Part shown: in pieces, positions 12,979-29,940 of the stretch | Numbering within the stretch: the first letter of the stretch is position 1 | Layout of the letters: every line of letters starts with the position of its first letter | Assembly: GCF_949774925.1 (NCBI RefSeq) | Contig: NZ_OX458932.1 | Location: 1,612,001-1,676,000 of the forward strand | Direction: 5' to 3' | Length of the DNA: 64,000 bases | Source: Candidatus Methylacidiphilum fumarolicum | GTDB taxonomy: Bacteria; Verrucomicrobiota; Verrucomicrobiia; Methylacidiphilales; Methylacidiphilaceae | The notes under the pieces: generated by a model | Told to the model about the DNA's origin: nothing | What the model saw: the letters and a program-made list of their open reading frames with translations, nothing else | Database searches by the model: none | Translations under genes and position numbers: made by a program

Positions 12979-14831
12979 TGAAGAAGGCGACACAACCAAC
13001 AACGCATCGACTCAAGAAACTTTCTTTTATACCTGCTCTTTTTGATTCCTTTGCCATTTATAAGCATACGTTGCCTTACTATCAACCTTTCATTCCAAAA
13101 CTCCTTCTCTGCGCATTTTTGATTATTCTTTCTGTGGGGCTGAATATACTAAGACCTTGGCCAGTGAAATGGCTCATTGACGACGTGCTGCTAAAAACCA
13201 TCAATCACCTCCCCCATGGTTATAAGCACAATCTTATGACCACTGCTTTTATTGGCTGCGCAGCCTTATTTCTAATTTATTTGATCCATAGCCAATTAAC
13301 CCTTCTAATCAACTCTTTACTCTATCGCATAGGGCTATCGGCCCTTCTGAAATTAAGAACTGATACTTTCTCCATCCTTCAATATCTTCCATTGCGTTTC
13401 CACGAATCGACCAAAAGTGGGGACATAGTCTATCGAATTGCCTATGACAGCCAATCAATACTGACCATGTTGATCAGGGGATTTAGCACTATCTTTAGTT
13501 CTTCTCTCCTTCTCATCGGTACATTATTTGTGATGCTGAAGCTTAATCTATATCTAGCCACAACAGCCCTGGGCATCGCACCTTTGTTATGGGCAATTAT
13601 CTCAGCCAATACTGCTAAAATCAGGGAAAAAAGTACCCGAGTCCAAGAACAGGAAAGTAATCTTTTGGCAGAGACCTCAGAAAGAATTTCTTCGATGCGG
13701 TTGATTCAAGCTTTCTCTAAAGAAGAAGAATCGATCGCATCTTTTGAAAAAGCCGCTTGGAACAGTCTGAACGCCAACTTTGAATACCTGCAGACTAGCA
13801 ATCTCTCTTCCCTTCTTATAACAATGACCACAGCCTTCGGAACAGCCCTGATCCTTTTCATAGGGACGAATGAAGTCTGGAAAGGAAGATTATCTATTGG
13901 GCAATTATGGATTTTTCTAAGTTATCTGGCTTCCTTATACCAACCGATGGAACAGCTCAGTTACACCTCTTGGGCTTTGGAAAGTGCCACAAGTAGTATG
14001 AAAAGAATTTTCGAACTCTTTGAGATTCCTAATGAAGTTTCAGAGCCTTCTAATGGAATCGTTTTGAAGTCCCCACAAGGTAAAATAGAATTTAGAAACG
14101 TCTCTTTCGAGTATCATCCAGGAAAGCCTGTTCTCAAAAATATAAGTTTCACTATCAATCCTGGAGAACGCGTTGCTATTGTAGGTCCCACAGGATCCGG
14201 AAAAACAACCATTCTTTCCTTACTCTGTAGGTTTTATGATCCTATCGAAGGCGCGATCACTATCGACGGTATCGACCTACGAAGCCTTACCAAAAAATCA
14301 TTACGCCAACATATTTCTCTAGTCTTACAAGATACCATTCTATTCAATACGACCGTCGAAGAAAACATCAAATTCGGAAAAGAGGGATCGAGTCACGATC
14401 AAATCATCCAGGCAGCAAAAGAAGCTTCAGTCGATTCATTCATTACCCAACTGCCTAAGGGATATGATACGATTGTAGGAGAAAAAGGGGCACTTCTCAG
14501 TGGGGGACAAAGACAAAGAATAGGTTTAGCCAGAGCTTTTTTAAGAAATTCTCCAATCCTTCTTTTAGACGAACCAACCAGCTCCTTAGATTTAAAAACG
14601 GAATTAGAACTTATGTCTTCTTTACTACACCTTATGAAAAATAAGACCACCCTCTTCGTTACCCATAGGCTACACATCATTCATTCTTGGGAACGCATTC
14701 TTGTGATAGTGGATGGGAAAATCTGCGAAGAAGGAAGCGGTAAAGAACTATTAAACAAAAAAGGGGTCTTCTATCACCTGTGGAAAGCGGGCAATTTTTT
14801 CTCACCTTCTACTGATCTCAAACCTCTTTGA
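12978..14831 (+). CDS. ABC exporter, fused membrane and ATPase domains (MsbA/HlyB type)
   Basis: A 617-residue half-transporter that should work as a homodimer in the inner membrane. Residues about 30-330 form a six-helix type I exporter membrane domain, and about 365-600 the ATPase. The ATPase shows Walker A GPTGSGKTT (near 403), Q-loop VLQDTILFN, signature LSGGQRQR (near 506), Walker B ILLLDEPTSSLD (near 528) and H-loop FVTHRL (near 561). No peptidase or cNMP domain precedes the membrane part. Tight coupling to the GH-GT2 gene suggests that it exports the glycan, or a lipid-linked form, made by that protein; this is inference. The 3' end overlaps the convergent regulator gene by 14 bp. Confidence 0.95.
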   Translation: MKKATQPTTHRLKKLSFIPALFDSFAIYKHTLPYYQPFIPKLLLCAFLIILSVGLNILRPWPVKWLIDDVLLKTINHLPHGYKHNLMTTAFIGCAALFLIYLIHSQLTLLINSLLYRIGLSALLKLRTDTFSILQYLPLRFHESTKSGDIVYRIAYDSQSILTMLIRGFSTIFSSSLLLIGTLFVMLKLNLYLATTALGIAPLLWAIISANTAKIREKSTRVQEQESNLLAETSERISSMRLIQAFSKEEESIASFEKAAWNSLNANFEYLQTSNLSSLLITMTTAFGTALILFIGTNEVWKGRLSIGQLWIFLSYLASLYQPMEQLSYTSWALESATSSMKRIFELFEIPNEVSEPSNGIVLKSPQGKIEFRNVSFEYHPGKPVLKNISFTINPGERVAIVGPTGSGKTTILSLLCRFYDPIEGAITIDGIDLRSLTKKSLRQHISLVLQDTILFNTTVEENIKFGKEGSSHDQIIQAAKEASVDSFITQLPKGYDTIVGEKGALLSGGQRQRIGLARAFLRNSPILLLDEPTSSLDLKTELELMSSLLHLMKNKTTLFVTHRLHIIHSWERILVIVDGKICEEGSGKELLNKKGVFYHLWKAGNFFSPSTDLKPL

Positions 14832-15963
14832 CTATTTTCCCTAAAGCCTCAAAACTATAACCAGGTAACAAGGCTAAATCATCTTTAAGATCCCCAGATT
14901 TGAGAAAATCCAGAAATTTTTCTACCGCAGGCTGCAAAATTAAGTCATGAGGTATAGCTAACCAAAATTCCATCTCATAGAGAGGAACAAAATCCAAGGA
15001 AGTAATTTCCGCACAAGCCCTCGAACTTAAACCAACATCGGCAAATCCATACCCAACAGCCTTTGCAACATCCAAAGCAGTAGGTAGCTCGATAGGATAT
15101 CCGTTAATTTGATGGGGTTGGATCCCCGCTTTGTTTAGCAAGCTATCAAGCAATATTCTGGTTCCAGAGCCATCTTCTCTATTGACAAAACGAATATTTT
15201 TTCTAAGGAGATCTTCTACTTGCCGAATGTTCAACGGATTGCCAGGTTTAACCACGAACCCTTCTTCCCACTTACTAAAAGCAAAAATCAAGCCTCCTGT
15301 CTTGGCCAATGCTTCGGTACCACTTGCGATATTGTTTTTTGGATGCTCCTTAGGAAAATGGAAACCACCAACATGAGCAAATCCCAATTGCAGAGAACTT
15401 AAAGCTTTAAGACTTGGTTGTCTAAACCACCATAGCTTAAAGTCAGAATACCTAGCAAGACGACTGGAGAGCATTCCAAGAGCGGGATCACACCCAACCA
15501 AAAAAATTTGTTTTTCTATTTCTGAATATGGGCAAAGAAGTCTCAGTTGTCGACAATTCCCTTCAGAACTTGCACGAAAAGCATTCGCTTCAACATACCC
15601 AAGATTTAACTCTAGACTGGCAGAAGGCCATGCAATCTTCTTTCCTCTCACCTCTCCCACAACCAATCTGTCCGGACTTTTTTCAGCGTACGTATTTTGC
15701 TGATCGACCCCAACAATGCAATCGGCATCTATAAAATCCGGGCTATAAGGAAAAAGAAACTCGACACTTTTCCCTAAAACTCGAGCCAACCTAAGAGCAA
15801 CGGCCGTATTAGGTACATAGCGCCCATTTTCCATCGCATGAATGGTTTGGCGACTTACTCCAATTTTTGAAGCAAGTTCCTTTTGGGATAGGCCTTTGCC
15901 AATCCTTGTCAACCGAAGAGGATTATTAATGAGAGAATCTTTTAAAGCCATTTTTCTATGCAT
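14818..15963 (-). CDS. XRE-family regulator fused to a periplasmic-binding-protein-like domain
   Basis: A 381-residue one-component regulator. Residues about 15-75 are an XRE helix-turn-helix (GLSQKELASKIGVSRQTIHA, then MENGRY). Residues about 90-370 match the PBP-like domain also found in molybdate-linked regulators and MoeA-associated proteins, with FVNREDGSGTRILLDSLL as the ligand-loop motif and KAVGYGFADVGLSSRA near the hinge. It probably senses a small anion or cofactor precursor such as molybdate or tungstate; this is inferred from family. It follows the ftsZ-like gene by 17 bp on the same strand, so it may be co-transcribed with the dcw cluster. An alternative ATG lies four codons in. 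Confidence 0.85.
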   Translation of the reverse strand: MHRKMALKDSLINNPLRLTRIGKGLSQKELASKIGVSRQTIHAMENGRYVPNTAVALRLARVLGKSVEFLFPYSPDFIDADCIVGVDQQNTYAEKSPDRLVVGEVRGKKIAWPSASLELNLGYVEANAFRASSEGNCRQLRLLCPYSEIEKQIFLVGCDPALGMLSSRLARYSDFKLWWFRQPSLKALSSLQLGFAHVGGFHFPKEHPKNNIASGTEALAKTGGLIFAFSKWEEGFVVKPGNPLNIRQVEDLLRKNIRFVNREDGSGTRILLDSLLNKAGIQPHQINGYPIELPTALDVAKAVGYGFADVGLSSRACAEITSLDFVPLYEMEFWLAIPHDLILQPAVEKFLDFLKSGDLKDDLALLPGYSFEALGKIVKEV

Positions 15964-15980: not shown

Positions 15981-17093
15981 TTAAATTTTAATAGAGATCC
16001 CTTTTCTTAAAAAAGCAGGCAGATCCAAATTAACTCCTTTATGGACCGTTTTATAGCCTTTGGTAAAAATACCAGTAGAAATACTCTCTTTTTGAAGACC
16101 ATCGGCAGGTTGTGTAGAGTTTTTATCATCGGCAAGGTCGGTATCGGTCCTTTCGAGTTGTTTTTCTACCTCGGTTTCAATAAACTTTTCTCCAGCAGCA
16201 TTACCAATAAGAACAACCCCCTCCTCTCTAGCACCCGTATCTTCTCTAATAATACTCAAATAGAAACGGTCGAACAAGCTTTCTTCGGCCTTAAAAAGGC
16301 TTCGTAGATCTTCCTCAGTTTTCGTAGGAGAAAGAAAAAAACAAACCCAGGCCACCTTCTTATTCTGTTCTATATCGACATCCCTAGCCGGCTGCAAATA
16401 AGGTTGTATCTTATCCGGTAGTTTCTCTACACCTCGTAAGGAAAAACTATAAAAGTCTTCGACAAAGAGAAGGGAAGGAAAATTGATGCTATCAAAAGGA
16501 GCTTCTTCTGTAGCCGCTTGGGTTAAGCGGTACCAACAGGAAATGATTGAGCTTACTTTTTTATTAAGATTTCTATACACCCGAAAGGGATCGTCTGCTG
16601 GACCAAAAACTCCCTTTGCTTTTTCGTTAGAGAAAAAAATGAACTGATGAGGAAATTCTAAAAGTTCTTGCACTGTTTTTCTTGCAGTATCTCGACGCAA
16701 AAAGGCCTCAGAATGAAACGGAAGAAAAGCTATAGAACTGAGAGTTTTGACTCTTTCGGCGGCTTTTTTAGAAAAAAATTGGAGCCCTGCGCTGCCCATA
16801 GCCCCTCCAAGCCCAGATAAAACTAACAAATGCTCACAGTCCTCCAATATCTGTTCAATTCTCGGTTCTTCTTCCTCAAAAATCTTCAATGCCAATTCCA
16901 AATCCCCACAAGTTCCTAACCCCTTTGTCGCCTCTTTGCCAAGTAGCATTCTTCTTTCAGCAAGGCTTCCTTCTACAGTCGAAAAATCAGCATCCAAGGC
17001 ATATAAGAGCCCACTAGGCTCTTCAGCTAAGATCCATTCGTCCAGTAAGTTAATCCCTGCTCTCCCTATCCCAACAACGACATTTTTCGTCAA
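15981..17093 (-). CDS. ftsZ: Highly divergent FtsZ homologue
   Basis: A 370-residue tubulin-superfamily division protein placed directly after ftsA. Homology is visible across the GTPase domain (VVVGIGRAGINLLDEW; LGKEATKGLGTCGD; LLVLSGLGGAMGSA), but key residues differ. The GGGTGTG tubulin signature reads GGAMGSA (96-102), the glycine-rich N-terminal loop reads GIGRAG, and the T7 loop expected as NxDxxD reads NFPSLL (204-209), lacking both catalytic aspartates. A polar linker (about 320-350) leads to a well-conserved C-terminal tail, LDLPAFLRK, the segment that binds FtsA in other bacteria. The start is TTG with a GGAAGG sequence about 7 bases upstream. It could be a hydrolysis-impaired FtsZ or a specialised paralogue. 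Confidence 0.85.
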   Translation of the reverse strand: MTKNVVVGIGRAGINLLDEWILAEEPSGLLYALDADFSTVEGSLAERRMLLGKEATKGLGTCGDLELALKIFEEEEPRIEQILEDCEHLLVLSGLGGAMGSAGLQFFSKKAAERVKTLSSIAFLPFHSEAFLRRDTARKTVQELLEFPHQFIFFSNEKAKGVFGPADDPFRVYRNLNKKVSSIISCWYRLTQAATEEAPFDSINFPSLLFVEDFYSFSLRGVEKLPDKIQPYLQPARDVDIEQNKKVAWVCFFLSPTKTEEDLRSLFKAEESLFDRFYLSIIREDTGAREEGVVLIGNAAGEKFIETEVEKQLERTDTDLADDKNSTQPADGLQKESISTGIFTKGYKTVHKGVNLDLPAFLRKGISIKI

Positions 17094-17130
17094 AAGAACC
17101 CTTCCTTTTGTAGTGTAAATAAAATTGTAA

Positions 17131-18369
17131 TCAATTTAAAAATTTGATATTTCCTAAAAATCGCAAGAGTGAAGAACGCATTTTTCCAAACGGTCCTTCT
17201 TTTAGACTCTCCATTTCGAATATCCGCCCATATCTGAGTAAGCCTAAAACGGTATACAGATCCGGCCTATCGAGATAGGATTGATCTCCTTCAAAAGGCA
17301 GCGGTTCAGCCAATTTAACAGGATAGTTAAAGATTTTTTGAGCTAGCTCTTCTACTCCATCGATCTTGCTCCCTCCACCAGTCAAGTAGATGGTACCTGT
17401 AAAATGAGGCCAAAAAGATTGCATTTCCAAATCCTCTTTAATAATTTCAAAAATTTCTTCTTGCCGGGCTCTCATAATTTTTACAATTGCGTTATAAGAC
17501 ACCAACCTTTCTTCGGGAAGAGGATGATTGCTTGTTGTCAGTCTCTTTTTAATGGATTCAGAGCCTAACTTAAAAGAACCAAAATGTTTCTTTATTTCTT
17601 CTGCTTGAGGAAATGGAATTCTTAAAGCCAGAGCTAAATCATTGGTTAAATGATCTTGTCCTACCCCGATCACTCCAGAGTGAACAATAATGCCTCCATG
17701 ATAAACGATATAGTCGGTTAGCCCTGCTCCTAGGTCAATAACGATCGCTCCATGCATTTTCTGACTCCGTGTGAGCACCGCTTGAGCTGTTGCAAAGATA
17801 CTCAGACAGTAATTGCGAATATCAATAGAAAGCTCTTTTACGCACCGGACAGTCGTTTGAAGCCTCGTAGCAATGCCTGAAATGAGATGATACTCCGCCG
17901 TCAACTTCTTTGAAAAAAGGCCGATAGGATTTTCCGTCAGTGTTCCATCATCTAAAGAATAGGTTTTCAATAAGTCATGTAAAAGGATTTGTCCAGTCGG
18001 CAAAGCCTGCTGTCTGACCAAAGACCTGAGTTCCATTAAGTGCTTTTGATCGATGCGATCTCCTTCTTCTCCAAGGCTAATAACCACTTTAGAATTGAAC
18101 GATCGGATATGGGCTCCACTAATGGCAAGATAAACTTCTTCGATCGCAACATTGGTTTTTGTTTCAGCTTCTACAATAGCATCATGTACCGATTTTTGAG
18201 CTAGCTCGAAATCAACGATTTCCCCCTTTCTAACATTGAGCGAAGGGCTCTCAGCAATACCCAATAAGTAGAGCTCGCCACCTTCCCTTAGTTCAGCCAC
18301 CGCACAAGCAATTTTGCTTGTCCCTATTTCAAGCCCAACAAGAATTGGCCATTCTTTCTTCCAAAACAT
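17131..18369 (-). CDS. ftsA: Cell division protein FtsA
   Basis: A 412-residue actin-like ATPase that tethers FtsZ to the membrane and recruits later division proteins. The phosphate-1 motif is near the start (VGLEIGTSKIACAVAEL), followed by the FtsA-specific 1C region (YLAISGAHIRSFNS). The phosphate-2 motif is GAIVIDLGAGLTDYIVY and the adenosine motif IYLTGGGSKIDGVEELA. The C-terminus (MRSSLLRFLGNIKFLN) has the basic amphipathic character of the FtsA membrane-targeting helix. It lies 37 bp upstream of the ftsZ-like gene and 31 bp downstream of ftsQ. An AGGAAA sequence precedes the ATG. Confidence 0.96.
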   Translation of the reverse strand: MFWKKEWPILVGLEIGTSKIACAVAELREGGELYLLGIAESPSLNVRKGEIVDFELAQKSVHDAIVEAETKTNVAIEEVYLAISGAHIRSFNSKVVISLGEEGDRIDQKHLMELRSLVRQQALPTGQILLHDLLKTYSLDDGTLTENPIGLFSKKLTAEYHLISGIATRLQTTVRCVKELSIDIRNYCLSIFATAQAVLTRSQKMHGAIVIDLGAGLTDYIVYHGGIIVHSGVIGVGQDHLTNDLALALRIPFPQAEEIKKHFGSFKLGSESIKKRLTTSNHPLPEERLVSYNAIVKIMRARQEEIFEIIKEDLEMQSFWPHFTGTIYLTGGGSKIDGVEELAQKIFNYPVKLAEPLPFEGDQSYLDRPDLYTVLGLLRYGRIFEMESLKEGPFGKMRSSLLRFLGNIKFLN

Positions 18370-18400: not shown

Positions 18401-19270
18401 TTACTGAAATATCACTGGTATATTTTGCTCCGGGGTCAGATCGACCATGGAAATTTTACGGCCATGGCTCTGAGAAAAAGAATAAATTTTTTGCAGTCTT
18501 TGTACCTGTTCATTCAAATGATCGATCCGGAAAGTAAGCCGGACTCCATCTCTCGTAAGGAGACCGATTGAAAGTGGCCTTGATACATCGATAGTTTGAG
18601 GATCAAAGGCGAAGTGTAAAGAAGAATTTTCTAATATACGAAGCAAATTGAGGGCAGCAGAAACCTCCGGTTCTTCTATTCTTTTTTTCCCTTCAATCAA
18701 TTTCAAAGGAACTCCCACCATTTCTGGCAAAGAAAGAAGATCCTCTCTGTTTTCTGTTACAAACGGATAGCCTTTTTCATCAAGACAATATTTCCTATTC
18801 TCTTTAGATTTCACAGCCAATCTCACAACAGGTTTTCTTTCCCAAATCCTTATTAGGACGCGATCGGGAAGATCCCTCCTGACAAGGGCTTTATCTACTT
18901 CTTGAATGGAACAAACTTTCGAATAGATATCCTTCAATGACAGGTTAAAGATATTATCTCCAACATGCACATTTGAAGCACGGATGACCTCATCTTTTGA
19001 TATTCGCCCGCTCCCGATCAACTCAACATCAATGCGTCTAAGCTGATAGCCGTAACACGCTAATAGATTGTTTTTAAAATAATCCCAGCTTTTGAATCCC
19101 CCGACAGTTCCAATCACAAACAATCCGATATATAACAACGCTCTTAATAAAAGAGAAAATTTAATCCTTTTTTTAGGTACACTTTCTTTGCCTTCGACGT
19201 GCAAAAACTCCATTGGAACTTTCTTGAGTCGATTCTTTTTTCTCTTTTTTGGTCTGTTTGTTACCCTCAT
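18401..19270 (-). CDS. ftsQ: Cell division protein FtsQ
   Basis: A 289-residue single-pass divisome protein. A short, very basic cytoplasmic tail (RPKKRKKNRLKK) and one membrane helix (about residues 42-58, LLRALLYIGLFVIGTVGGF) are followed by a POTRA domain (about 78-150, RRIDVELIGSGRISKDEVI) and a beta domain. The ATG at 19270 was chosen because an AAGGAG ribosome-binding site lies 6 bases upstream. A longer frame reaching 19351 would overlap ddl and lacks such a site. ddl ends 44 bp upstream and ftsA starts 31 bp downstream. Confidence 0.9.
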   Translation of the reverse strand: MRVTNRPKKRKKNRLKKVPMEFLHVEGKESVPKKRIKFSLLLRALLYIGLFVIGTVGGFKSWDYFKNNLLACYGYQLRRIDVELIGSGRISKDEVIRASNVHVGDNIFNLSLKDIYSKVCSIQEVDKALVRRDLPDRVLIRIWERKPVVRLAVKSKENRKYCLDEKGYPFVTENREDLLSLPEMVGVPLKLIEGKKRIEEPEVSAALNLLRILENSSLHFAFDPQTIDVSRPLSIGLLTRDGVRLTFRIDHLNEQVQRLQKIYSFSQSHGRKISMVDLTPEQNIPVIFQ

Positions 19271-19314
19271 ATCATGCTCCTTGGAAAGATTTGCCTTCTG
19301 GCGCTTTGCGTTTT

Positions 19315-20244
19315 TTAGATCCTGACACCAAAAGACTCTCTGGCTCGCCATTTGAAGAAAGAAAGTTCTACAATCTTTTCACAAAGTTCTGCAAAATTGA
19401 GCCCAGCTGCTTTTGCAGCCATTGGGAACAGACTGGTTTCAGTCATTCCAGGGATTGTATTTATTTCTAAAACCCAAGGAACCCCGTTTTCTGACAAAAT
19501 GATATCGACTCTTCCATAAATAGAGCAGCCCAGGACATGAAAAGCATCCAGAGCTGTTTTCTGCACCGCCTCCACTTGACTCTTTGTCAACAAAGCCGGA
19601 CAAATGTATTCTGAAGCTCCCTTAGTATACTTATTTTGGTAGTCATAAAACCCCTTTTTGGGTTTAATTTCCACAATAGGAAGCGCTTGGTTATCTAAAA
19701 TCGCCACCGTCAATTCTCTTCCCTTGATAAGCGTTTCAGCTATCACGACATGATCAAATTGCTTTGATTTTCTGACCGCTTCCTCAAAATCCTCCATAGC
19801 ATAGACAAACTCAACCCCAATGCTTGAACCCTGCCTTGATGGTTTTATGACATAGGGAGGCCCAAAAGGGACTTTTTTTTCTTCACCCACAACAAAAAAA
19901 GGTGGCGTAGGAATCCCTCCTTGGACAAAAAGTTTCTTACTCCAAACCTTATCAAAAGCCTTTTCACTGGATGCAGCATCGCTGCCAGTAAAAGGAATTC
20001 CTCGACGCATTAAGAGTCTTTGTATTTGTCCGTCTTCTCCAAAGGTCCCATGAATACACAAAAAGCAGATCTCCGTTGATTCAGGCAGTTCGAACTTTTC
20101 ATTGATTACATCGACTGATGTCAGCTCATAACCCAGAGAAAAAAGCGCACTTTCAACTGCCGAAGCTGTCTTCAGAGAAATTTGTCTTTCTTCGGAGGGA
20201 CCTCCTTTCAAAATAGTTATATGTCTAGGCAATTCTTCCTTCAT
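19315..20244 (-). CDS. ddl: D-alanine--D-alanine ligase
   Basis: A 309-residue ATP-grasp enzyme making the D-Ala-D-Ala dipeptide of the peptidoglycan stem. Signatures are ILKGGPSEERQISLKTA at the N-terminus, the ATP-binding loop PSRQGSSIGVEFV, DYQNKYTKGASEYICPA and the metal-binding C-terminal EINTIPGMTETS. The ATG overlaps the stop of the murC-murB fusion by 4 bases (ATGA), a sign of translational coupling. In several bacteria ddl sits next to murB and ftsQ, as here. Confidence 0.96.
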   Translation of the reverse strand: MKEELPRHITILKGGPSEERQISLKTASAVESALFSLGYELTSVDVINEKFELPESTEICFLCIHGTFGEDGQIQRLLMRRGIPFTGSDAASSEKAFDKVWSKKLFVQGGIPTPPFFVVGEEKKVPFGPPYVIKPSRQGSSIGVEFVYAMEDFEEAVRKSKQFDHVVIAETLIKGRELTVAILDNQALPIVEIKPKKGFYDYQNKYTKGASEYICPALLTKSQVEAVQKTALDAFHVLGCSIYGRVDIILSENGVPWVLEINTIPGMTETSLFPMAAKAAGLNFAELCEKIVELSFFKWRARESFGVRI

Positions 20245-22526
20245 TGTTCTTCTCCCAAAATGACGACTTCTGTTTCTAGCACGATGCCCCTTTTCTCAAA
20301 AGCCTCCCTTTGAATCAAGCTAATAAGATCCAATATGTCTTTTGCCGTAGCCCCTCCCTCATTGATAATGAAATTACCATGTTCTTCCGATACCCTTGCT
20401 TTGCCTACTGCCTTATTTTTTAAACCTAATTCGTCAATTAATTTCCCAGCTGGAATGCTATTTGGATTTTTAAAAATACAGCCTGCACTAGAACCTGCAG
20501 GTTGACTTTCTACCCGTTTCATTGAAAACTCTTTTAATTCCCTTGCGATAGCATCACTATCCATCGGCTTAGCCACAAGTTGAGCTGAAAGAGCAATGTG
20601 ATTCTCAAAAAAAGGGACTTTTCGATAACAAACTTCCAGTTCTTGCCGATCAATCTCTCCAATATTCCCTTCCATATCCATAAAGCGGATTCTTTTGACC
20701 ACATCCATGGTCGATCCACCCATAGCTCCTGCATTCATTCTTAAGGCGCCCCCTAAGCTACCAGGTATGCCTTCCATAAAGGAAAGGCCCCCAAGCCCAT
20801 GCTTTTTAGCTTCATAAACTATATTCCGCAATTTGACCCCGCATCCTGCAAAAATCAAATGACCTTCAAAACGGATATCACAGAAATTGGGGTGGGCTAA
20901 ATGGATGCAAAGACCTTTGATGCCACCATCACGAACAAGAAGGTTCGTTCCCTTGCCAATCCACACCACAGGCAAAGCCTGTTCTTTAGCAAATTGTAAA
21001 AGCAAGGCAAGATCGGCCTCTGTTGCTGGCTCTGCCCAGATTTCAGCAGGCCCTCCAACCCTCAAAGTCGTATGTCTACTTAATGGTTCATTCATCAAAA
21101 GCTTTGCGTCAGCCGACAATTTACTTTTAAGGTGATCAATCATACGCAGATACTCGGTTAATTTTTCCGCTGTTTTATAAATATCTCCTGCCCCCATAGT
21201 TACTATAGTGTCTCCAGGTTGCAAGATGGAGATTGTTTTATGGATCAGTCTCTTTTCATCAGGTTCAAAAAAAACCGCTGGATGGCCCTGTTCTCTAATG
21301 GCTCTAGCTATTGCTGCTCCATCAACCCCATTAGAGGTCTCTCCAGCTGAGAAGATCTCAGTTACGACAACGACATCGGCTTGAGAAAAAGATTTTGAAA
21401 AAAGGGCTTGCATCTTTTGAACTCGGCTATACCTATGAGGTTGGAATAGAGCAACCGTTCTTCTTCCACGCCCTTTTGCCGAACTTAACGTCGTTTTGAT
21501 CTCTGTCGGATGATGGGCATAATCATCGATGAGTTCGAAATAATTGCCTTTAAATTTCAATTCAAACCTTCTTCTTATTCCTTGGAAGTTCCCAAGGGCA
21601 CAAGCGGCTCTCAAAGGAGAAACTCCAAGGGTCGTTGTCAGCGATAAAGCAGCAAGAGCATTTTGCACGTTTTGAATACCCGGAATTGCCAAGGAAATTT
21701 CACATAACCATTCCTCCCCTTTATAGAAATGGTGTCCAGAAGTGCTTGTTGAAGCCTTCATCCAAAATGCCGCTGCTCTTTCTCTTAAACTATAATTGAT
21801 GGCTCCCTGTTTTCTCCACTCTGCGATGAGTTGGCAATGAGGGTCATCTTGATTATAGACCACTGTATCGGTGGTTTTGGCAACCATTTCTCTAAAAGTC
21901 AAAACGATAGAATGAATATCCGCATAATAATTGAGATGCTCTTCCTCAATATTTAAAACAACCAGCGCATGCGGAGAAAAATACAAAAAACTGCCATCGC
22001 TTTCATCTCCCTCAATGACCATATATTCTCCAGGACTCCACCGCGCACTCTCTCTAAGAGAAATCGTTTCAGCTCCTAAATAAAAGGAAGGATTTAGTCC
22101 ACATTCCTGGAGGATCCAAGCAATCATGGCAGAGGTCGTACTTTTTCCATGCATTCCACTAACAAGAATGACTTTTTTTTCGGCAGCTAAAAGAGAAAGC
22201 AAAAAGGCTCTTTTGACAAGCGGTATGCCAAATTTTCGGCAAGCCTCCAATTCAGGGTTGGCTAAGGGTATTGCTGAAGAATAACACACTAGATCAGCAG
22301 CTAATACCTGAGATTGGTCATGAGTTGGATAAAACTCCAATCCATGGGCTATTAGTTTTTGCGCTTTTTCAGTCGGTTCGTGGTCCGAACCACTGACTTT
22401 GTAGCCTCTTGCAAGCAACAGTAGAGCCAGCGGGGCCATCCCGCTGCCACAAACCCCTAATAAATGAATTTTCGAGCGGTTGTTCTTGAGGATGTTTTGA
22501 ACTAGTTCTCTTTCTTTAGCAGACAT
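20241..22526 (-). CDS. murC-murB: MurC-MurB fusion: UDP-MurNAc--L-Ala ligase and UDP-enolpyruvyl-GlcNAc reductase
   Basis: A 761-residue bifunctional cytoplasmic enzyme. Residues 1 to about 450 are MurC: nucleotide loop LLGVCGSGMAPLA, ATP loop GMHGKSTT (124-131) and the ligase C-terminal domain IDDYAHHPTEIKTTL. Residues about 465-761 are MurB: HTTLRVGGPAEIWAEP, the FAD-binding IGKGTNLLVRDGG and EGIPGSLGGALRMNAGA. The catalytic Ser position of MurB reads Cys (AGCIFKNP), a substitution that should still allow proton donation. The two reactions are consecutive (MurB product feeds MurC), so fusion could channel UDP-MurNAc. The frame is uninterrupted between domains. It overlaps murG by 25 bp and ddl by 4 bp. 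Confidence 0.96.
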   Translation of the reverse strand: MSAKERELVQNILKNNRSKIHLLGVCGSGMAPLALLLLARGYKVSGSDHEPTEKAQKLIAHGLEFYPTHDQSQVLAADLVCYSSAIPLANPELEACRKFGIPLVKRAFLLSLLAAEKKVILVSGMHGKSTTSAMIAWILQECGLNPSFYLGAETISLRESARWSPGEYMVIEGDESDGSFLYFSPHALVVLNIEEEHLNYYADIHSIVLTFREMVAKTTDTVVYNQDDPHCQLIAEWRKQGAINYSLRERAAAFWMKASTSTSGHHFYKGEEWLCEISLAIPGIQNVQNALAALSLTTTLGVSPLRAACALGNFQGIRRRFELKFKGNYFELIDDYAHHPTEIKTTLSSAKGRGRRTVALFQPHRYSRVQKMQALFSKSFSQADVVVVTEIFSAGETSNGVDGAAIARAIREQGHPAVFFEPDEKRLIHKTISILQPGDTIVTMGAGDIYKTAEKLTEYLRMIDHLKSKLSADAKLLMNEPLSRHTTLRVGGPAEIWAEPATEADLALLLQFAKEQALPVVWIGKGTNLLVRDGGIKGLCIHLAHPNFCDIRFEGHLIFAGCGVKLRNIVYEAKKHGLGGLSFMEGIPGSLGGALRMNAGAMGGSTMDVVKRIRFMDMEGNIGEIDRQELEVCYRKVPFFENHIALSAQLVAKPMDSDAIARELKEFSMKRVESQPAGSSAGCIFKNPNSIPAGKLIDELGLKNKAVGKARVSEEHGNFIINEGGATAKDILDLISLIQREAFEKRGIVLETEVVILGEEQ

Positions 22527-23616: not shown

Positions 23617-24798
23617 TTAGAGATTGATAGAGCGTTGCGCCCCTTTCTCTTCTACTTTAATATGAAATTCCGGAGGCCTTTGTCGATGTATGTTCAATAG
23701 CACGCCTACGGACATAAGGCAAAAAACAAGATTCGATCCTCCATAACTAATGAAAGGTAAAGGAAAGCCTTTATTCGGAAGCAAGCCAGTCACTACGCCT
23801 AAATTTGCAAGTGTCTGAATACCTATCAACGAAGTCAGACTTGTACCAATCATTAACCCCTCTTTATCCGGAGCAAAAAGAGAAATCCATCCAGCAGTTA
23901 AAATAAAACTTAGATAAAGTCCAACGATAAGTAGGGTTGCCCAAAGACCCAGTTCTTCACCAATGATGGGAAAAATAAAATCGGTTGTTGACTCTGGCAA
24001 ATAAAACATCTTCTGACGACTGTTTCCTAACCCAAGTCCGCTGATACCCCCAGAACCTAAAGCAATCAATGATTGCCAAACCTGATAAGACTTACCTTCT
24101 TTATCTTGATCCATCGCCAAAAAAGCCAAAAGTCGAGATCTTCTTTCTGGCATTAACAAGGCAACGATAAGAACAAAAAGGATACCCGAGCCTAAGATAG
24201 GAAGGATCCATTTCAAGGAAATACCCCCCAAGTACAAAAATAGGACAAAAACCATAAAGTAGAGAAGACTCGATCCAAGATCTCCAGAAATTATTAACAG
24301 ACTAACAAAAAGTCCCATTGTCACAAAAGCCGTAAAAAAGGGAGATACAAAAAAAAGGACTTTCTTTTTGGCATCTGACAGGATGCGAGCAAAAAAAAGG
24401 GAGATAAAAATTTTTGAAAATTCTGAAGGCTCTACATTGAACCCACCTACCGAAATCCATCGGGACGAACCATGAACTTTATGTCCGATTCCAGGAACAA
24501 AACAGAGAATGAGAAGAAAAAAGCCAAAGATCAAAAGCCAATTAGAAAGTTGTAGGAGTTTGTGATAATCAATCAGGCTAAAAATCAAGCAGCTGAAGAG
24601 CCCAATAGCAATCCAAAGGAATTGACGCAACATTAAACTAGAAATCTGACTTTCTTTTCCCAATACAAATTTCCCGGAAGCACTAAAGAGGGCCACAATG
24701 CCAATAGAAAGTAAAGTTAAAGCAATGGCGACTAGTAAATAACCAGAAAATTGATTGATTTTCTTTGTTTTTTGGTGAAACAGATCAAATTCTTGCAT
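23617..24798 (-). CDS. ftsW: Peptidoglycan polymerase FtsW (SEDS family)
   Basis: A 393-residue polytopic inner-membrane glycosyltransferase of the septum, working with FtsI. About ten membrane helices are visible. SEDS features include the large periplasmic loop around GHKVHGSSRWISVGGFNVEPSE, the catalytic-loop segment STTDFIFPIIGEELGL and the C-terminal PLPFISYGGSNL. It lies 15 bp after the LysM gene and 5 bp before murG. I chose FtsW over RodA because of its dcw location. Confidence 0.95.
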   Translation of the reverse strand: MQEFDLFHQKTKKINQFSGYLLVAIALTLLSIGIVALFSASGKFVLGKESQISSLMLRQFLWIAIGLFSCLIFSLIDYHKLLQLSNWLLIFGFFLLILCFVPGIGHKVHGSSRWISVGGFNVEPSEFSKIFISLFFARILSDAKKKVLFFVSPFFTAFVTMGLFVSLLIISGDLGSSLLYFMVFVLFLYLGGISLKWILPILGSGILFVLIVALLMPERRSRLLAFLAMDQDKEGKSYQVWQSLIALGSGGISGLGLGNSRQKMFYLPESTTDFIFPIIGEELGLWATLLIVGLYLSFILTAGWISLFAPDKEGLMIGTSLTSLIGIQTLANLGVVTGLLPNKGFPLPFISYGGSNLVFCLMSVGVLLNIHRQRPPEFHIKVEEKGAQRSINL

Positions 24799-24813: not shown

Positions 24814-25500
24814 TTATTGTGGTGGTGCGTTTTGCAGGGAACTGGAACCAGGAGATGGAGAAGAACTATCTTTTTCTTTTGGATTAGGAATGACTAATTC
24901 CTGTCCTATCTTTAACTTCGTAGGATCCTTGATTGCATTGGCATCCACGATGTCTTTCACAGAAAGATGAAACTTACGCGCTATTTTCCAAAGGCTGTCC
25001 CCCTGTCGAACGGCATAGATCCTTTTGCCATCAGCTTCTTTAAGAAGCATAGATTCTTCAGCCATTTCTTCTTCTGCCATGGGAATCCTTATTTTTTGGC
25101 CCGGGACAAGTGTATCCCCTAGGGAGGGATTATACTTTTTAAGCTCATAAACACTGACTTTATAATGCCTAGCAATACTCAAAAGACTCTCTCCTTCCTT
25201 GACTATATGAACGGATCTTTCCCTTGTGTGCGGACTGACTTGTGGCTGCTGTGGGACTTGCAAATTTTGAGGTTCTGACTCCGGATTTTCCGATTGCATT
25301 TTTTGCTGTGAGGGAGGCTGAAAATTCAAATTTTGGGATCCTCCTGTATGCTGACTTAATACTTTTCCTTTGGAATGAAGCAGATAATAGACGGCCACCG
25401 AACCGATTACTAAAAGATGAATTCCCAGAACCAAAATCAAAACAGCAATGACCTTTAGGCCAAAAGATGGCTTCGAAGCTTTGCTTTTTTTTTCTTCCAT
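24814..25500 (-). CDS. Membrane-anchored protein with two LysM domains
   Basis: A 228-residue protein with an N-terminal membrane anchor (about residues 13-40, LKVIAVLILVLGIHLLVIGS), a Gln/Pro/Ser-rich linker and two LysM peptidoglycan-binding domains. The first spans about 98-140 (IVKEGESLLSIARHYKVSVY) and the second about 160-205 (VRQGDSLWKIARKFHLSVKD). The tail is Ser/Pro-rich. No catalytic domain is present, so it probably binds septal wall or acts as a scaffold. It occupies the mraY-ftsW interval where murD commonly sits in other bacteria. Spacing is 47 bp to mraY upstream and 15 bp to ftsW downstream, so co-transcription is likely. Confidence 0.88.
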   Translation of the reverse strand: MEEKKSKASKPSFGLKVIAVLILVLGIHLLVIGSVAVYYLLHSKGKVLSQHTGGSQNLNFQPPSQQKMQSENPESEPQNLQVPQQPQVSPHTRERSVHIVKEGESLLSIARHYKVSVYELKKYNPSLGDTLVPGQKIRIPMAEEEMAEESMLLKEADGKRIYAVRQGDSLWKIARKFHLSVKDIVDANAIKDPTKLKIGQELVIPNPKEKDSSSPSPGSSSLQNAPPQ

Positions 25501-28354: not shown

Positions 28355-29170
28355 ATTTCTTGCTTCCTCGAGGCCAGTTTCACACCGCCTTCTTGTGGCG
28401 ACGACGGCCAGAGCTTTCCTTTCCCCATACTTCACATCTGACAGCACTTGCCATAGAGCCGCCAATACTGCCAAGCCATACCCCAGGTGATTGCTGGTCG
28501 CATTCACCTCCCAGTCCTGGAGGCTTCCACAGTCCAGGCAGGTCCACAGGCGAACAGTCAGCGGTATTTTCTTCTGACCCTTCCCACCAAGCCAAAGAGG
28601 TATTGCTGGACGCAAACCAGCGATCGGTCACCCCCATCAACCCAACACACCATTCCGCCTTGTATTCTAGTTGCCGCCAGAACTCGAAAACACTCCCGTC
28701 GGCAATGGACCGAGCCAGGGGATGGCTTTTCAGTATCCTTCGCCCATTCAACTCTTTGATGACAATCGAATGAAACCGTCGGGTGAGGTTGGACGTGAAC
28801 TGGCGACAGGCGTCCTGCCGGATATTGGTGATGCAGGCGTGAAGGCTGGACATCTTGGCTATTACTTTTTTCGCATTCTCTGTCGCCGGCAACCGTGTGC
28901 TTTTGGGAATCGGAGCATTGTCCGCTAACCCGAGCTCTCTAGTCAGGGGAAAACAGTCAGGCCCGCCTGTCTTGCGGTACTTCGGGTACTTTGCGCGTCC
29001 TGCCCAGAAGTTCTTGCAGGCGACTCCCAACTGCCCAATTGCCATCTGTGATGCGTTTTTGGTGACTTCGAGCATACAGGGGAATTGCTCGCGTTTCATG
29101 GCGTTGAGCTGGTGACGGAAGGAAGGCTGCGAGAGCTTGGGCAGGCAGGTGCTTGGCTTTCCCCCCCCCC
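28337..29170 (-). pseudogene. tnpB: TnpB-type RNA-guided nuclease remnant (IS607/IS605 group)
   Basis: About 270 codons of a TnpB gene remain out of roughly 400. Recognisable pieces in order are an N-terminal segment (LPKLSQPSFRHQLNAMKRE), FFAGRAKYPK-like sequence (FWAGRAKYPKYRKTGG), the central RuvC region (HSIVIKELNGRRILK, then EFWRQLEYKAEWC) and, after a frameshift near 28600, the zinc-ribbon half WTCLDCGSLQDWEVNA. The first CxxC of the zinc ribbon is lost, and the N-terminal 80 or so residues are missing or unrecognisable. Homologues cut DNA using an RNA transcribed from the element end; this copy cannot be active. Confidence 0.8.
29161..29170. repeat. Homopolymer of ten C residues
   Basis: An uninterrupted C10 run on the plus strand (G10 in the tnpB sense) at the junction of the tnpA and tnpB remnants. 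It stands out in an AT-rich chromosome and could be slippage-prone or a sequencing-length error. Confidence 0.9.
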
Positions 29171-29249
29171 GCATAAAGTCTCTACCACTTGGTCAGCACC
29201 CAGTTGTATCTGAACCGTGTGGTCCCCGCTGCCTTGGCGAAGGAGGTGA

Positions 29250-29940
29250 CCTAAATACTGTGTGAGACCAGCGCGATTATGTAGCGATGATCCCGACTGA
29301 GATTCCTCCACAGCTTTTTTGACATCATCCAATAGCTTCTGGTTCTTGCGCAAGCGACTCCCCCGCATAGCCAAGCGCTAAACATTGCAATGATTTCCAA
29401 CACGCCCTTGGCCCAATCTTCCTCGAAGGTCGTCTCTTTGTCTTGGTTGAGAAGGACCACTTCCACGTTTTTCGCCCTGTAGGTGGCAAATACCAGTTCT
29501 GTACCAAAGCACAACAGCCGGTTCTTGTGGAAGACGACCAGCCACTTAATCTTGCCACTGATGCCAGCATCGAGCAGCCGCTTGAGACCCCTCGTGTGAG
29601 ATTTCATGCCAGACCCTACGTTCGCGATGGCCTCAAACGTTCAGCCCTGGCAGGCACAGAACAGCTCAAGCATCTGTTTCTGCCCTTCCAGCTCGTCCTT
29701 CTAATCGGGGCTGGAAACACGGGCATAGGCAATGGCACGCCAGTTAGCTTCGGCTTCGGCACGGAATAGCTCTGGGGCAACCGCACAAGAGCGTAGCGCT
29801 GGCGCCCGCCCGCCGTGCGGGCTTGCGGCAAAAGCTTGCCCTCGCGTTCCCATCACCGCAGCGTTGGGACAAAACCCCTCAGGAACTCGAGCGGCCTTTT
29901 GAAGGCTGACCATCTTACGCGACAGGTTCAAGCTATGCAT
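29250..29940 (-). pseudogene. tnpA: IS607-type serine recombinase TnpA remnant
   Basis: Remains of a roughly 220-residue transposase with an N-terminal MerR-like helix-turn-helix and a serine-recombinase catalytic domain. Visible pieces are NLSRKMVSLQKAARV, the frame-shifted WEREGKLLPQARTAGGRQRY, the catalytic-serine motif AIAYARVSSPD and GLKRLLDAGISGKIKWLVV, then ETTFEEDWAKGVLEII. It has in-frame stops at 29701-29703 (where Gln is expected) and 29641-29643 (where Trp is expected), a further stop in the HTH (where Arg is expected) and a frameshift near 29370. The nonsense changes look like C-to-T or G-to-A transitions, which suggests simple mutational decay. Confidence 0.82.

Follow-up and report, generated by a model that had tools for sequence, protein, structure and literature searches.

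The debate on whether cell division needs FtsZ treadmilling draws largely on mutants of model organisms. In Bacillus subtilis, rings cannot condense or start to constrict without treadmilling (PMC8079713). The hydrolysis-deficient Escherichia coli mutant D212G reportedly functions in division and constricts liposomes (PMC4383033), and it forms static membrane rings with a GTPase activity below 1% by a cited measurement (PMC7320174). FtsZ proteins of Verrucomicrobiota have been called among the most divergent (PMC9871819). That of Verrucomicrobium spinosum, where ftsZ is essential (PMC12283558), was described as canonical, with the signature GGGTGSG (PMC1845146). For Methylacidiphilum infernorum, Hou et al. 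(2008) stated as data not shown that ftsZ evolution is accelerated while ftsA and ftsK are unaffected, and a reviewer of that paper requested evidence for the acceleration (PMC2474590). A 2016 survey needed an alternative query to recover M. infernorum FtsZ (PMC5147048). Fast evolution of ftsZ has been known since 2008, without a motif analysis, and in the open literature we found no paper on changes in T4, T7, H8, or the nucleotide pocket or on a phylum-wide single-acid T7 loop.

A lineage whose sole FtsZ naturally lacks parts of the hydrolysis machinery would provide wild-type proteins for testing whether division requires a dynamic ring that consumes GTP. Living relatives represent each step of loss: both T7 acids, one acid, neither for certain, and base contacts gone. 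The erosion also bears on the complete loss of FtsZ in neighbouring Planctomycetes and Chlamydiae.

The ftsZ gene, its neighbourhood, and its conservation

The window is a stretch of 64,000 nucleotides of the genome of Candidatus Methylacidiphilum fumarolicum, an acidophilic methanotroph (NZ_OX458932.1, positions 1,612,001 to 1,676,000); its main features are listed in Table 1. It carries a dcw cluster in the order murE, murF, mraY, LysM protein gene, ftsW, murG, murC-murB fusion, ddl, ftsQ, ftsA, and ftsZ, where mraY, murG, and ddl were assigned by eye from the open reading frame sequences. The expected FtsZ homologue directly after ftsA is indeed there, as the last gene of the cluster. Its place in the ftsQ-ftsA-ftsZ series and its single copy are as expected of ftsZ, and ftsA lies directly upstream of ftsZ in all 30 loci of the order that were examined. 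Three further features of the neighbourhood were observed. The LysM-domain protein gene (24814-25500) has ftsW on one side and mraY on the other. A transposon-like stretch (28380-29607), with a weak OrfB_IS605 match below the cut-off, breaks the cluster between murE and murF. Finally, a gene for a regulator with HTH and PBP_like (molybdate-type) domains (14818-15963) adjoins ftsZ, an arrangement conserved in both Methylacidiphilum and its sister genus.

Table 1. Features of the ftsZ region, in window positions; residue numbers are those of the focal protein.
Feature	Position	Strand	Description	Basis
ftsZ orthologue	15981..17093	(-)	370 aa; begins with TTG at 17093, stop codon ends at 15981	ORF; PF00091
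C-terminal tail, predicted FtsA-binding motif	15984..16073	(-)	GIFTKGYKTVHKGVNLDLPAFLRKGISIKI, residues 341-370	
Degenerate T7 loop	16467..16499	(-)	PFDSINFPSLL, residues 199-209; H8 missing; conserved acid D201	
H7 start	16563..16577	(-)	YRNLN, residues 173-177; F182Y, N186 kept, then D187K	
N156	16626..16628	(-)	equivalent of guanine-contact N165; invariant in genus	
T5	16695..16721	(-)	PFHSEAFLR, residues 125-133; E138 and R142 equivalents kept	
T4 tubulin signature	16788..16814	(-)	GLGGAMGSA, residues 94-102	
T1 loop	17049..17072	(-)	GIGRAGIN, residues 8-15; N24 equivalent kept	
Ribosome-binding-like site	17099..17107	(-)	AAGGAAGGG, 5 bases 5' of the ftsZ TTG	direct read
ftsA	17131..18369	(-)	412 aa, directly upstream of ftsZ	TIGR01174, 299.9 bits
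ftsQ	18401..19351	(-)	POTRA and FtsQ_C	
murC-murB fusion	20241..22526	(-)	761 aa	
ftsW	23617..24798	(-)		

The predicted protein matched the Pfam Tubulin/FtsZ GTPase domain (PF00091) with 69.7 bits (cut-off, 33) but scored only 60.5 bits against NCBIfam TIGR00065, below the cut-off of 295.2 and over the GTPase half alone. That cut-off discriminates poorly in Verrucomicrobiota, since only 14 of 145 genomes pass it. A Pfam search of the focal protein detected no FtsZ_C domain (PF12327); profile alignment aligned the C-terminal domain weakly and linked it to FtsZ_C only via the sister genus. A canonical second ftsZ would have demoted the gene to a paralogue, but a search of the whole genome (one contig of 2,476,671 bases, 99.95% complete) found no second PF00091 or TIGR00065 gene in its 2.48 Mb. 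An FtsZl1/Tubulin_2 protein with an intact GLAGGTGSG is encoded elsewhere in the genome, at 1719373-1720398 and outside the dcw cluster, and was rejected as a second ftsZ because it belongs to a different family, already reported for M. infernorum (PMC2875224). The focal protein matches PF00091 only, and the PF13809 (Tubulin_2) match belongs to that other protein. A search for a plasmid origin gave no match.

The gene is in frame in four other Methylacidiphilum genomes (92, 91, 50, and 51% identity). A scan of genome contigs with the single protein matched Methylacidiphilum sp. Yel alone, at 91% identity. Within the genus, dN/dS across four pairs (three close, one more distant) was 0.22 to 0.34 for ftsZ versus 0.03 to 0.21 for ftsA, and in most pairs the ftsZ value was several-fold the higher. 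Because the frame is kept in four congeners and dN/dS is 0.22 to 0.34, the open reading frame is a real gene, neither a sequencing artefact nor a chance occurrence. Comparison of one half of the genus with the other gives 80 to 81% identity for ftsA and 50 to 51% for ftsZ; between genera, the values are 57 to 59% for ftsA versus about 28 to 40% over alignable parts for ftsZ. These ratios and identities indicate purifying selection on ftsZ that is relaxed relative to ftsA, and not decay. The reading frame is open in 12 of the 12 Methylacidiphilaceae genomes where ftsZ was found. Its apparent absence from a 13th, of the sister genus, was dismissed; ftsA there is cut by the contig end.

Conservation is unevenly distributed along the protein. 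Compared with the congener whose genome has 2,287,145 bases, overall identity is 51%, with 59% in the GTPase half, 35% in the C-terminal domain, 18% in the linker, and 78% in tail residues 339 to 370, the most conserved segment. The tail had been called near-canonical, and this held: it contains NLDLPAFLRK, and the motif occurs in 121 of 130 Verrucomicrobiota FtsZ proteins, the others being truncated or slight variants. The focal protein thus retains an intact predicted FtsA-binding peptide.

The nucleotide pocket, T7 loop, and helix H8

Motifs were numbered as in E. coli FtsZ, using an alignment of the 130 Verrucomicrobiota proteins with the E. coli protein. The motifs GGAMGSA, GIGRAG, NFPSLL, and NLDLPAFLRK, on which the original prediction was built, were all present in the translation. 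Its claim of an altered tubulin signature was upheld, as T4 does not match [SAG]GGTG[SAT]G and reads GGAMGSA, or GGGMGSA in two congeners. All five genus members carry T108M, T110S, and G111A, and the three that form the focal clade carry G107A as well. The claim that the N-terminal glycine loop is eroded did not extend to the genus, where T1 is near canonical (GIGGAGIN in 3/5 members) and G20R belongs to the focal species.

Residues that contact the base and ribose are largely retained: E138, N165, an aromatic residue at 182 (F182Y), N24, and N186 in 5/5 genus members and R142 in 4/5. Of 24 positions taken as nucleotide contacts in FtsZ structures generally, 21 do not vary within the genus, versus invariance at 102 of 195 positions (52%) in the GTPase half (Fisher P = 1.4e-4). 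At three of these 21 the residue is not that of E. coli (Met at 108, Ser at 110, and Lys at 187), so that what is conserved there is an altered pocket. Conservation of the pocket glycines may be structural and unrelated to nucleotide.

The T7 loop was predicted to have lost both catalytic aspartates. The loop is degenerate and the deduced protein certainly lacks a full NxDFAD motif, but the loss of both aspartates is certain under one alignment only. Throughout the order, the stretch of H7 between F182 and T7 can be aligned gap-free. By an ungapped count from H7, an Asp falls exactly at 209 in two genus members (SFDRES and PFDQLG) and one residue off 209 in the focal clade, which is one residue longer (APFDSIN), while position 212 is Ser, Gly, or Asn in the genus. 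Profile alignment with the order instead pairs NFPSL with SFADV, giving Asn at 209 and Ser at 212 in the focal protein and placing an Asp at 212 (SFPD) in the 2,287,145-base congener. HMM alignment of the segment was not significant, and the Asp that the bulk MAFFT alignment scored at 209 for the genus was not relied on. Under either the ungapped count or the profile alignment, the focal clade has no acid at 212. The Phe-Asp pair of this region is invariant in the genus, and its Asp, D201, may occupy the place of D209; the identity of T7 residues depends on the alignment. Between H7/T7 and strand S7, where the order has H8, the genus has approximately 7 to 10 residues fewer, indicating that helix H8 is largely deleted throughout the genus. 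An AlphaFold2 model from two sequences (pLDDT, 39) was too poor for testing the fold.

Erosion of FtsZ across Verrucomicrobiota

Alignment with FtsZ of other Verrucomicrobia, proposed as a check with the original prediction, revealed a graded loss of T7 acids. In one sample of the phylum (130 proteins, bulk alignment), both acids were present in 17, one in 105, and neither in 8, counts that carry the T7 alignment ambiguity for Methylacidiphilaceae. On a quick tree of the neighbouring FtsA, which has several long branches, nearly all families of the order have Ser, His, Thr, or Gly at 209 and Asp or Glu at 212; only f5 has both acids. T7 reads LSFAD or similar in nearly all of these families. 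The ancestor of the order thus apparently already functioned with a single T7 acid, to judge from these alignments. Methylacidiphilaceae form one clade on the tree. Their basal genus (g2) has LTPWE and retains H8, Methylacidiphilum has the degenerate T7 loop and no H8, and in the sister genus (g3) both the T7/H8 module and the contacts N165, F182, and N186 are gone.

The direction of loss differs among families (loci L053-L132): D212 is lost in f12, f17, and f19 and D209 in f11, f13, f15, and the order of Methylacidiphilum. In f12, of the same class, NLDFATL keeps D209 and lacks D212, unambiguously so against B. subtilis NLDFADV. Family f28, of another class (L088, L092, L097, L098, L106, and L111), is a second strongly eroded group, with a T4 of CCGGGT containing a deletion, N165L, N186A, and Arg or His at 212. 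In f8 (L022 and L029), the sister family of Methylacidiphilaceae on the FtsA tree, T108 is also lost in 2/3 members (GGGAGS) and Leu occupies 182 in 3/3; T4 erosion may therefore predate Methylacidiphilaceae. The comparisons indicate that FtsZ erosion is phylum-wide and graded, with Methylacidiphilum near its extreme end, so that the focal FtsZ represents the far point of a trend rather than an isolated event. Sequence, gene order, copy number, conservation, and the graded series were all observed directly.

Possible function and comparison with known FtsZ systems

From these observations we infer the nucleotide state, polymerisation, and ring function of the focal FtsZ. The reading that we tentatively prefer, with a probability of roughly 0.48, is that it is the sole Z-ring protein, that it binds GTP, and that its hydrolysis is strongly slowed or lost, giving slow or static filaments tethered by FtsA. 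As the sole, vertically inherited FtsZ, it would still build the division scaffold. Guanine nucleotide would still be bound, as the conserved base, ribose, and loop contacts suggest, and hydrolysis would be impaired because the T4 contact to the gamma-phosphate (T108) is gone, T7 is degenerate, and H8 is deleted. Filaments anchored by FtsA would recruit FtsQ, FtsW, and cell wall synthesis, and their turnover would depend on a process other than fast hydrolysis of GTP. The genome encodes FtsW and an intact MreB (508 bits); ZapA and SepF were sought in the genome and neither was detected, and M. infernorum is reported to have lost MinCDE and FtsEX (PMC2474590). This reading is favoured because the tail and the base and ribose contacts are kept while gamma-phosphate and hydrolysis parts are lost and because E. 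coli D212G and Ca. Thiosymbion oneisti FtsZ offer precedents. The requirement for treadmilling in B. subtilis counts against it.

Since D201 may substitute for D209, GTPase activity may persist. D201, or the SFPD Asp in the 2,287,145-base congener, would then replace the T7 acids, and Met at 108 would be tolerated, leaving a reorganised enzyme with useful hydrolysis and treadmilling. The ungapped count from H7 and the invariant Phe-Asp pair are consistent with this, as are the 105 single-acid proteins, which are presumably functional, and the essentiality of ftsZ in V. spinosum. However, T108M and the H8 deletion are common to the whole genus, and the acid usual in the order is D212, not D209. 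We consider an active GTPase somewhat unlikely.

The original prediction had offered a ring that depends little on hydrolysis or a pseudo-FtsZ scaffold. The first gains from the retained contacts, which favour a GTP-binding, slowly hydrolysing ring over a nucleotide-free protein. A pseudo-FtsZ would form no nucleotide-dependent polymer and would act as an FtsA-bound adaptor, with FtsA filaments, MreB, or cell wall synthesis driving division. The C-terminal domain that PF12327 does not recognise, the pocket contacts and T7/H8 module missing from the sister genus, and the intact MreB all fit such a protein. In Methylacidiphilum, though, pocket residues are more conserved than the background, and the C-terminal domain is less conserved than the GTPase half, so we regard this alternative as quite unlikely. 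A decaying, functionless gene retained by operon linkage is very improbable, as the raised dN/dS relative to ftsA is still well below 1, the frame is open throughout the family, and the tail is strongly conserved.

Beyond the preferred slow or static ring, Methylacidiphilaceae FtsZ may lack GTP hydrolysis entirely and that of the sister genus may make no use of nucleotide, which would amount to a natural, lineage-wide replacement of the treadmilling ring by an FtsA-held scaffold, either static or serving as an adaptor; this broader proposal is speculative and unlikely.

The focal FtsZ shares with the E. coli and B. subtilis proteins its descent and dcw synteny, the GTPase half, the FtsA-binding tail, and the T1, T5, T6, and H7 contacts. 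It differs in its T4 loop, the lack of NxDFAD in T7, the deletion of H8, an FtsZ_C domain below detection, and its short length of 370 residues. FtsZl1/Tubulin_2 (PMC2875224) belongs to the same superfamily and occurs in the same genome but is a separate family with an intact GGTGSG, outside the dcw cluster. With Verrucomicrobiota FtsZ in general, most sampled members of which have one T7 acid, the focal protein shares lineage and trend; Methylacidiphilaceae go further in the changes to T4 and H8 and, in the sister genus, in the loss of base contacts. Ca. Thiosymbion oneisti FtsZ (PMC8953583) is likewise a natural, wild-type protein, with low GTPase activity, but its catalytic residues are conserved. 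The state expected here, GTP-bound in slow or static filaments, is that of the E. coli D212G and D212A mutants (PMC4383033, PMC7320174); theirs is an engineered point change, whereas that of Methylacidiphilum would be a natural loss across T4, T7, and H8.
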